Below are positions 37,648-40,461 of a stretch of 64,000 nt of DNA, one piece after another (positions within the stretch are counted from its first letter, which is position 1; each line of letters begins with the position of its first letter). Origin of the DNA: Larkinella humicola (GTDB lineage: Bacteria > Bacteroidota > Bacteroidia > Cytophagales > Spirosomataceae); assembly GCF_008727875.1 (NCBI RefSeq), contig NZ_VTWS01000001.1, positions 186,001 to 250,000 of the forward strand, in the 5' to 3' direction. The translations under genes were made by a program, and so were the position numbers. The notes beneath the pieces are model-generated. The model searched no databases. It had not been told where the DNA came from and saw nothing but the letters and a program-made list of their open reading frames with translations.

Positions 37648-38625
37648 TTATAAACTTGCGCCCAGGTAGGATACTGTATAATTATAGGTCTCCGTTGCCA
37701 GCAATTGCGGGTATTGATCGTCGTACCGTTTCCGTTCCGTTACATACCCATCGGCGTTCAGGGAATACGTAAAATTTGAACCATGGTACCCCATGCCTTC
37801 AACCTGCCAGTTGGCCGCCGACAATAAGCTTTTACTCATCTTGCCGTAAATCTTCAGATACCGTTCCGGAATCGCCTGAGCATAGTAATCGATGTAGCTG
37901 TACGGGGTAGGCAGAAGAATCCAGTTGAAATTTGTTGGATATTTATCCTCAACGTATTCAATCACATTGATCTGACCCGGGTTCTGGGATTGACGGGTTT
38001 TGTTTTCCAGGTATTTGAGCGTAATGGTATACCACGGTTTTACCTTCGACATGCCTTCCCAGTAGGTCGTCACCAGATTCAGGTTGCCCTGTGCGTTGTA
38101 ACTATATTCGGTCCGGTTAACGGCTTTGTATTTTTCTCCGCAACTGATTAATTGACCCTTTGCATTGTAAGCATACACCCAGGTACGGACTCGGAATGGG
38201 TCGTTTAAGTTAGAGTTAAAAGGGGTTTGCAATACTTTGTAGTCGACTTGCTCCGATTCGTAGCAGCGGTTGGTGGCCGGGTCGATCAGGTACGTGTCCT
38301 TGAAAGCCATTTTGCCGTTTCGGTAGGATATGGCCTGGATCGTATTGCCGTTGTAGGTGTAATCACGGTGGAATTCCGCACCCTGGGTCACTTTTTGCAG
38401 CCGACCATCGGGATAGTACGTTAAAATCGCATTCCCCTGCTGGGTTAAGGTGTACTTTTTCGCCACGTTCACCACGATGACGTCATCAGTTGCTTTTTGG
38501 GCGGACGTATTTTCCCGTAGTGGTTGATCGGGTGTAATGGCACTGTCTTTCTGGCAGGATACCAGGCTGGTAGATAAGGCCAAACCAATGGCCAGAGCGG
38601 TTTTTTGAAATGAGTTGTTGTTCAC
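37648..38625 (-). CDS. hypothetical lipoprotein, beta-rich (325 aa)
   Basis: The protein begins (GTG at 38625) VNNNSFQKTALAIGLALSTS followed by LVSC, a clear lipobox with Cys at about residue 24. The rest has many short YxYN-type strands (YTYNGNTIQAI, YAYNAKGQLIS, YSYNAQGNLNL), resembling RHS/YD-like or DUF4595-type sheets found in Bacteroidota lipoproteins. The longer frame to 38859 runs through the divergent promoter and is rejected. Function unknown. Confidence 0.75.
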   Translation of the reverse strand: MNNNSFQKTALAIGLALSTSLVSCQKDSAITPDQPLRENTSAQKATDDVIVVNVAKKYTLTQQGNAILTYYPDGRLQKVTQGAEFHRDYTYNGNTIQAISYRNGKMAFKDTYLIDPATNRCYESEQVDYKVLQTPFNSNLNDPFRVRTWVYAYNAKGQLISCGEKYKAVNRTEYSYNAQGNLNLVTTYWEGMSKVKPWYTITLKYLENKTRQSQNPGQINVIEYVEDKYPTNFNWILLPTPYSYIDYYAQAIPERYLKIYGKMSKSLLSAANWQVEGMGYHGSNFTYSLNADGYVTERKRYDDQYPQLLATETYNYTVSYLGASL

Positions 38626-38802
38626 TGTTGTGTCGATTAAAATGTTGTTGCGCTGCAAAGTTGGCAGGCCCGGGTGCAGAAAACGAGTCGGAATACATAG
38701 TTGGTAGCAGAATGCCCATAACTCTCCGGAAATGAGTATTGATGAGTCTTTTGCTATCTTGCCAACTGATCGATCCCATTGACTCAACCATCCGTTTCCC
38801 GA

Positions 38803-40461
38803 ATGACCAAATCGAACTTGCCCCAGGCGTTTCGCCACCCTTACGAATTTGATCCCCAATTCAAGAAATCCGTTGCGTATTTTTCGATGGAATTTGCCAT
38901 CGATCAGGCTTTAAAGACCTATTCCGGTGGCCTGGGTTTTCTGGCTGGATCGCACATGCGGAGTGCCTATGAACTGAAGCAGAATGTGATCGGCATCGGC
39001 ATGCTCTGGAAGTATGGGTATTATGACCAGACCCGCAAAACCGACAACGCGATGGATGTGCTGTTTCGGGAAAAAATCTACAGTTTTCTGGAAGATACCG
39101 ACATCAAATTTACCATCGACGTTCACCATACGCCGGTTTGGGTCAAGGCCTATTACCTGAACCCCAAGCACTTCAACACAATTCCGATGTTTTTTCTGAC
39201 CACGGACATCGAAGGCAACGACTGGATGGCCCGCTCCATCACGCACCGGTTATACGACAGCATTACGTCGGCTAAAATTGCGCAGTGTATGGTGTTGGGC
39301 CTGGGTGGGGCGAAACTGCTCGATGAATTGACGTACGAACCGGACGTGTATCACCTGAACGAAGCCCACGCGGTGTCGGCGGCTTTTCACTTATACCAGA
39401 AATACGGTAGCGCAGACGAAGTTCGCAAACGGATGGTTTTTACGACCCACACCCCCGAAGAAGCCGGCAACGAAAAACACGACATCAACCAGTTGAATAT
39501 CATGAGTTTCTTTGGGAAAGTGCCGCTGGAAACCGTGCGGGAAATAACCGGTATCGAAGACAACGTGTTCAATCACTCGCTGGCGGCCTTGCGACTGAGC
39601 CGGAAGGCCAATGCGGTTTCCAAACTGCACGGCGAAGTGTCGCGGCATCTGTGGGGGTCGTACAGTGGCATTCCCGAGATTACACACGTGACCAATGCGC
39701 AAAATCAGCGGTATTGGGCTGACCCTGAACTGGAGCAGGCCCGAAAAAAGAGCGATGGAAAAACCATTGCGGAGCGGAAGAAAAGCCTGAAAGCAACCCT
39801 GTTCAAAACCGTGGCCGATCAGTGCGGCAAATTGTTCGACCCGGAGGTGCTGACGATCGTCTGGGCCAGGCGGTTTGCGGGCTATAAGCGCCCGGATCTG
39901 CTAGTGCAGGACGACGAACGCTTTCACCACCTGATGAATCATCCCGAGTACCCCATTCAATTTATCTGGGCCGGAAAACCGTATCCGTCCGACGAAGGCG
40001 CTACGCACATCTTCAATTCGCTGGTGTACCGGAGTCACCTCCACAAAAACATGGCGGTTTTGACGGGCTACGAACTGGCACTTTCGAAACAGTTGAAAGA
40101 CGGCGCTGATCTGTGGCTGAACACGCCCGTGGTGACCCGCGAGGCATCCGGCACGAGCGGCATGACGGCGGCTATGAATGCGGGAATCAACTTCTCAACC
40201 TTCGATGGCTGGATATGCGAGTTTGCGGAGCACCAGAAAAATGCGTTCATCGTACCGGTGGCCCAACCCGGATTGTCGCCCGAAGAACGGGATACGCAGG
40301 ACCGGAACCACTTCTTGGATCAACTGGAAAACGAAATCATGCCGCTTTATTACGATAAACCGGCTGACTGGCATCGCCTGACGCTGCAAAGCATGAACGA
40401 CGTCAACGCGTTTTTCAACTCCAACCGGATGGCAACGGAGTATTATCAAAAAGTGTATTGA
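38803..40461 (+). CDS. alpha-glucan family phosphorylase homologue lacking the PLP lysine
   Basis: A 552-residue protein of the short GT35 (alpha-glucan phosphorylase) type. YFSMEFAIDQALKTYSGGLGFLAG, VYHLNEAHAVSAAF, and VWARRFAGYKRPDLL are family hallmarks. The PLP-site pattern E-A-S-G-T-S-G-M-K-x-x-M-N appears as EASGTSGMTAAMN, with Thr455 where Lys carries pyridoxal phosphate. By family it would release glucose-1-phosphate from glucans in the cytoplasm, but without that lysine normal catalysis is doubtful. The ATG at 38803 is chosen over a TTG at 38779. The gene is followed by a 28-bp perfect hairpin. Confidence 0.85.
   Translation: MTKSNLPQAFRHPYEFDPQFKKSVAYFSMEFAIDQALKTYSGGLGFLAGSHMRSAYELKQNVIGIGMLWKYGYYDQTRKTDNAMDVLFREKIYSFLEDTDIKFTIDVHHTPVWVKAYYLNPKHFNTIPMFFLTTDIEGNDWMARSITHRLYDSITSAKIAQCMVLGLGGAKLLDELTYEPDVYHLNEAHAVSAAFHLYQKYGSADEVRKRMVFTTHTPEEAGNEKHDINQLNIMSFFGKVPLETVREITGIEDNVFNHSLAALRLSRKANAVSKLHGEVSRHLWGSYSGIPEITHVTNAQNQRYWADPELEQARKKSDGKTIAERKKSLKATLFKTVADQCGKLFDPEVLTIVWARRFAGYKRPDLLVQDDERFHHLMNHPEYPIQFIWAGKPYPSDEGATHIFNSLVYRSHLHKNMAVLTGYELALSKQLKDGADLWLNTPVVTREASGTSGMTAAMNAGINFSTFDGWICEFAEHQKNAFIVPVAQPGLSPEERDTQDRNHFLDQLENEIMPLYYDKPADWHRLTLQSMNDVNAFFNSNRMATEYYQKVY

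Follow-up and report, generated by a model that had tools for sequence, protein, structure and literature searches.

The question raised by this locus is whether a glucan phosphorylase that has lost the lysine holding pyridoxal phosphate (PLP) can still be an active enzyme, and how the cofactor would then be handled. Glycogen phosphorylase is the textbook case of a PLP enzyme believed to employ no part of the cofactor but its phosphate group, and it has long been asked why PLP is used there. The gene is located on the forward strand at 38803..40461 of the window, i.e., the whole stretch of 64,000 nucleotides of Larkinella humicola DNA that was analyzed. It starts with an ATG at 38803, its stop codon ends at 40461, and it encodes 552 amino acids; an in-frame TTG is found upstream at 38779. 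The first 57 bases are overlapped by a minus-strand ORF of 403 aa (37648-38859), which extends into the gene via a far-upstream TTG start and probably has its true start further in.

The protein belongs to the GT35 superfamily. PF00343 was matched with 56.2 bits (cut-off 27) and TIGR02094, 'alpha-glucan family phosphorylase', with 409.1 bits (cut-off 191.7); in the genome of the window, the 552-aa protein is the only PF00343 match found by the profile search. The AF2 model (pLDDT 89, pTM 0.86) has the GT-B phosphorylase fold, with the glycogen phosphorylases 20yr (TM 0.87) and 9l6i (TM 0.86, both by query length) as top fold matches. These two Segatella copri entries represent the nearest solved structure in both sequence and fold. 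The likeness to GlgA of family GT5, which presumably has the GT-B fold in common, is weak, as the TIGR02095 score of 34.2 bits is far below the cut-off of 328.45, and an assignment as a GT5 glycogen synthase is not supported.

The attachment-site motif EASGTSGMTAAMN comprises residues 447-459 (40141..40179, forward strand), of which Glu447 and Thr451 are kept. The lysine of the EASGxxxxK motif of PLP-dependent phosphorylases is absent: the codon at 40165..40167 (forward strand), read directly, is ACG and residue 455 is a threonine, exactly as the initial annotation of this DNA had stated. A sequencing error or a point mutation, to be recognized by a lysine in all close relatives, had also been considered there. 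Neither fits the data, since ACG was found at codon 455 in all nine genomes of the genus (the window and eight fetched) and Thr, Ser or Ala is present throughout the clade; lysine was seen only in distant relatives, whose identity is 37% for L060, aligned along the full length, and at most 42% for partial matches.

For the alignment, identical proteins were counted once, which reduced the clade from 202 to 158 and the lysine-type relatives from 23 to 15. Position 455 is Thr in 132, Ser in 25 and Ala in 1 of the 158 distinct clade members, and Lys in all 15 lysine-type relatives, a small comparison set of which 11 are from Campylobacterota. Lysine is also present in L072, L074 and L079, which, as L159, escaped the script pattern and were read by eye; L075 and L076 are 100-base stretches without the gene. 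Among the best 80 of at least 590 relative loci (named collection), Thr was found in 69 and Ser in 11 cases; 79 were scored by pattern (Thr 68, Ser 11), and L159, with Thr, was read by eye. For all pattern-matched fetched loci, duplicates included, residue 455 and the one preceding it read MT (160), MS (38), VT (2), MA (2) or MK (23). The clade member L220 (genome G697) has an alanine at this position (GMAASMN), so that a hydroxyl group at 455 is not indispensable. The pairwise dN/dS was 0.032-0.111 in 36 pairs of the nine congeners. Selection on the gene is strongly purifying among them, and decay is ruled out by these values (0.03-0.11) and the intact frames. The 552-aa protein is best classed as a GT35 homologue other than a canonical PLP-lysine phosphorylase. 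Profile annotation labels the clade proteins phosphorylases (TIGR02094 above cut-off) despite the absent attachment residue.

Members of the clade of approximately 550-aa proteins without the PLP lysine came from Bacteroidota, Verrucomicrobiota and Campylobacterota, and from a single pseudomonad, a Halopseudomonas isolate. By record title, the best 80 of at least 590 loci are distributed over Bacteroidota (56), Verrucomicrobiota (11), Campylobacterota (9) and Pseudomonadota (4). The named isolate among the latter four is Halopseudomonas (L173); L135, L138 and L148 are uncultured bins labeled Beijerinckiaceae or Sphingomonadales, which the tree places within Bacteroidota and which probably represent misbinned contigs. 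Chryseobacterium, Pedobacter, Hymenobacter, Akkermansia and Sulfurimonas are among the genera carrying the clade type by record title. In a protein search of 296 genomes of the phylum, 199 had a match at E ≤1e-20, 33 of them with E <1e-180 over nearly the full length; the others listed had at most 41% identity and were mostly partial. The gene was matched in 34 of the 59 closest relatives searched and is absent in 25, and is therefore common but dispensable.

In a tree of 104 proteins, the 15 lysine-type rows are split from all 89 others with a support of 100; this split is one long branch (1.49) from a quick method, where L060 also joins on a long branch, and the tree covers 104 of 174 rows, leaving aside the clade members of the eight Campylobacterota genomes with both types. 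The impression, given in the initial annotation, that the Thr form occurs in a whole Bacteroidota subgroup holds in part: the clade is real and stands apart from the lysine type, but it is not restricted to Bacteroidota. Likewise, the alignment of homologues proposed there yields a clade of its own in which Thr is not the sole residue, Ser or Ala being possible. The existence of a large natural group without the canonical cofactor lysine is thereby confirmed and extended to several phyla. No description of a Thr/Ser-type GT35 clade was found in the literature searched, most subscription journals and preprints lying outside this search.

The other active-site residues examined are kept in the clade. 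His216, Glu187, Asn298, Trp305, Arg357, Tyr361, Lys362, Arg363, Glu447 and Thr451 show no variation in the clade or in the lysine type. His216 (39448..39450, forward strand), the putative active-site histidine, is presumably the equivalent of His377 of the rabbit enzyme. The motif RRFAGYKR (residues 356-363, 39868..39891, forward strand), in which Arg357, Tyr361, Lys362 and Arg363 are invariant and position 356 is Arg in 156 and Lys in 2 clade members, is taken to be equivalent to the Lys568-Lys574 region of rabbit phosphorylase and would make contact with the phosphate. With the exception of Trp305, the invariant residues are those expected to bind glucose and phosphate; their functional equivalence to known catalytic residues is our assumption. 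These residues do not prove the presence of PLP because, judging from GlgA motifs, they are presumably in part common to nucleotide-sugar enzymes.

The change at 455 is accompanied by further changes. Between the clade and the lysine type (158 and 15 proteins), 52-53 alignment positions are conserved within the groups but differ between them. One of these is residue 432, a candidate new cofactor lysine with the codon AAA (40096..40098, forward strand), which is Lys in all 158 clade members and Val (11), Thr (2) or Ile (2) in the 15 lysine-type relatives. The combinations of positions 432 and 455 are K/T (132), K/S (25) and K/A (1) in the clade and V/K (11), T/K (2) and I/K (2) in the lysine type, so position 455 accepts Thr, Ser or Ala whereas 432 is always Lys in the clade. 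V or I at 432 together with K at 455 was also found by eye in L072, L074 and L079 and in the five solved phosphorylases with a listed alignment (47 matched). The lysine-type outlier L060 (37% identity) has Thr432/Lys455, the mirror image of Lys432/Thr455. A second clade-specific lysine, Lys326 (39778..39780, forward strand), is present in 158 of 158 clade members, with His in 13 of the 15 lysine-type proteins. Lys38 (156 of 158) was set aside as a displaced lysine, as the lysine-type S. copri protein has Lys there too.

According to DSSP on the AF2 model and the make-up of the columns, residues 427, 428, 431 and 432 line up as a single conserved face of a helix spanning residues 425-434 (40075..40104, forward strand). 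This face is hydrophobic or small in the lysine-type proteins and consists of Leu, Ser, mostly Leu, and Lys in the clade, where 427, 428 and 432 are invariant. On such a hydrophobic face, an invariant lysine is unusual unless its partner is buried. In the alignment with rabbit phosphorylase, the helix comes after the equivalent of Tyr648, with Ser428 corresponding to Ala653 and position 432 to Ile657. We take Ala653 to line or touch PLP, with Ile657 one turn later, and a literature search for an Ala653-PLP contact in rabbit phosphorylase gave nothing useful. The helix carrying Lys432 should line the cofactor pocket.

Since the clade has the invariant Lys432 that is absent from the lysine type, PLP may still be held by another lysine. 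Our tentatively preferred explanation is that the clade consists of working alpha-glucan phosphorylases in which the PLP lysine has shifted from the classical position to Lys432 while the catalytic machinery was kept; the step from the conservation of Lys432 to cofactor chemistry is one that we infer from the alignment. Lys432, which follows Ser428 by one turn of the putative pocket-lining helix, would take over the anchoring of PLP, Thr/Ser455 would fill the position vacated by the old lysine, and the PLP phosphate would remain the proton relay to inorganic phosphate. The small GT35 enzymes of the clade (approximately 550 aa) would most likely act in glycogen metabolism as alpha-1,4-glucan phosphorylases, with the product glucose 1-phosphate feeding phosphoglucomutase and glycolysis. 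WNK kinases, which moved their catalytic lysine, offer an analogy for such a swap. If true, an enzyme family that is among the most thoroughly studied would contain a PLP lysine displaced in three or more bacterial phyla. The absence of the gene in the 25 relatives mentioned above weighs against this reading, as does the fact that no glycogen-related neighbor of the gene was found within the window.

The broader statement, that the protein is an active glucan phosphorylase with some cofactor arrangement, be it a displaced lysine, no PLP, or PLP without a Schiff base, is probable. The last of these is improbable as such: PLP would be held by its phosphate in the conserved GTSG loop and would work as usual. 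In the clade, the loop that binds the phosphate is intact, as are basic residues near it, and phosphorylase reduced so that the Schiff base is lost stays active, but the invariant Lys432 would be left without a role.

A close rival to lysine displacement, and quite possible, is a PLP-free alpha-glucan phosphorylase in which the second phosphate is dispensable or replaced, and Lys432 and its neighbors fill or neutralize the empty pocket. GT4 trehalose phosphorylases are likewise not known to contain PLP. The initial annotation had held the Schiff base to be needed for activity; this is too strong, given that the reduced phosphorylase retains much activity. It is also too strong in view of the archaeal glycogen phosphorylase of Methanococcus maripaludis (MmGP), set beside the clade here by its description only, which is reported in a review not to require PLP (PMC12267944). 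Another review describes GT4 and GT35 phosphorylases as using a front-side mechanism in which the proton donor is the phosphate itself (PMC8950772). The clade has larger residues than the lysine type at a number of positions, including Y69W, V74Y, V95F, V124F, T304Y, F354W and F389W, and at 52 group-specific positions the clade residue is larger in 24 and smaller in 16 cases; on average, however, the shift in size is slight, and it is derived from sequence columns rather than pocket coordinates. By itself, the PLP-free reading gives no explanation for the invariant lysine at 432.

In Campylobacterota, the clade gene is located in glycogen operons. In L211, the order is lysine-type phosphorylase, phosphoglucomutase, glucose-6-phosphate isomerase, clade protein, sugar-nucleotide transferase and GH57 (Pfam/NCBIfam); the isomerase stop overlaps the start of the clade gene as ATGA, and GlgA and GlgB follow approximately 8-12 kb further on in this genome. 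Other Campylobacterota loci have similar neighbors, e.g., phosphofructokinase, identified by their first residues only. The operon context in Campylobacterota may, indirectly, point to phosphorolysis of an alpha-1,4-glucan by the clade protein. Among the Bacteroidota loci, L088 has the clade gene next to phosphoketolase and acetate kinase genes.

In 150 genomes of the Campylobacterota class, 22 matches were found at E ≤1e-10, comprising 19 genomes with the clade type, 2 with the lysine type only and 1 fragment. A lysine-type phosphorylase is also carried by 8 of the 19 clade-positive genomes, and both types occur within one operon in four of them (L210-L213). Among the 31 clade genomes reached by loci, G610 and G609 have a second, longer PF00343 match of lysine-type character; second matches in G608 (two stops inside), G612 and G634 are outside the type counts. 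The coexistence in Campylobacterota and in G610 and G609 argues against plain equivalence with the lysine type, and the frequency in Campylobacterota rules out a simple replacement as a general rule. In L227, the lysine type sits just ahead of the genes for the sugar-nucleotide transferase and GH57, at a place held by the clade type in L219, L222 and L223, which suggests that the roles of the two types are related; their coexistence in L210-L213 suggests that they are not identical. By analogy, the roles may perhaps differ as those of E. coli MalP and GlgP do.

In Bacteroidota, the two types were found together in none of the 33 clade-positive genomes of the phylum search (E ≤1e-20). In the class of the window, 54 of 295 genomes match PF00343, of which 26 have the clade type, 28 another type and none both, with at most a few candidates scored per genome and G351, G423, G452 and G530 typed by frame length alone. 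With about 2.5 genomes with both types expected under independence, this exclusivity is suggestive only. These counts bear on the least probable explanation considered, in which the protein has lost its catalytic activity and has been retained to regulate other glycogen enzymes or to serve them as a glucan-binding partner. It would be in line with the operon shared with a lysine-type phosphorylase in the four genomes, but the catalytic residues examined are all invariant, and since the types were not seen together in the Bacteroidota samples (0 of 33 and 0 of 54), a dead protein would have no such partner there.

It is also unlikely, though less so, that the protein is a glycosyltransferase with another donor (e.g., ADP- or UDP-glucose) that builds glucan, its PLP pocket having reverted to a nucleotide pocket. 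Nucleotide sugars are the usual donors of GT-B enzymes, and PLP has been proposed in a review to have replaced a nucleoside monophosphate in a proto-GT35 enzyme (PMC11046441). The adjoining sugar-nucleotide transferase of L211 and the lysine-type phosphorylase in 8 of 19 Campylobacterota genomes would also fit such a role. However, a greater likeness to GlgA than that of the lysine-type relatives was not found: TIGR02095 scores are 34, 27, 20 and 49 bits plus one unlisted in five clade members and 24, 41 and 19 bits plus one unlisted in four lysine-type proteins, and are thus no higher in the clade.

The presence of recognized synthases was checked in 76 genomes, 67 of them clade-positive. A GT5, GT3 or GlgE match was found in 63 of the 67 (58 without the sub-cut-off GT5 matches of G616-G620, of which that of G617 is also split), so that genomes with the clade protein do not in general depend on it as a synthase, which speaks against a glucan-building function. 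In its favor, no full GT5, GT3 or GlgE was found in four of the 67 genomes, namely G111 and G076 (same order) and G621 and G622, the genomes of the Akkermansia-labeled loci L136 and L150. GT3 and GlgB are also present in seven genomes from the family of the window that have no clade protein. The idea that the clade protein stands in for a glycogen synthase lacking in the window genome is unsupported, given the matches of this genome to a GT3 synthase, GlgE and GlgB. Of GT5, this genome carries only an N-terminal fragment of approximately 285 aa, next to which it has the GT3 glycogen synthase in its repertoire (G000:C14:171974-172672 and G000:C14:853296-855116), and both are present in 25 of 28 genomes of the same family or order checked. 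The conserved GT5 fragment in Bacteroidetes has already been noted in a review (PMC11046441).

Compared with known systems, the clade has the GT-B fold, the catalytic residues and the EASGTSG loop in common with the lysine-type TIGR02094 phosphorylases, exemplified by the S. copri protein (9l6i/20yr). Unlike the clade, these have the PLP lysine at 455 and Val, Ile or Thr at 432, are mostly about 700-870 aa in length (569-611 aa in L060-L062) compared with about 550 aa, and reach higher TIGR02094 scores (578-784 bits in four proteins, compared with 409-434 bits in five clade members). The lysine-type copy of L211 has an N-terminal DUF3417 domain, for which the window protein passed no cut-off in the Pfam profile search. 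The classical GT35 phosphorylases (TIGR02093; E. coli MalP and rabbit phosphorylase) presumably share the catalytic core and residues, with 14-18% identity to the window protein in the fold alignments listed. The PLP lysine of MalP is K646 (PMC11046441). A clade of this size that occurs naturally and lacks the canonical lysine makes the question of why glycogen phosphorylase uses PLP directly testable; the clade provides a natural test of cofactor use in a classic enzyme and bears on the glycogen metabolism of several genera.

In Bacteroidota, a widely conserved gene neighborhood is almost absent. Among 39 stretches compared, the commonest neighbor family recurred in 8; its first residues suggest a PAS/histidine kinase. 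The copies in L063, L069 and L078 lie near genes resembling universal stress proteins or PAS sensor kinases, again judged from first residues, with L063 being the second copy in G190 and L078 the second copy in G334; these copies hint at a stress-linked paralogue within the clade.
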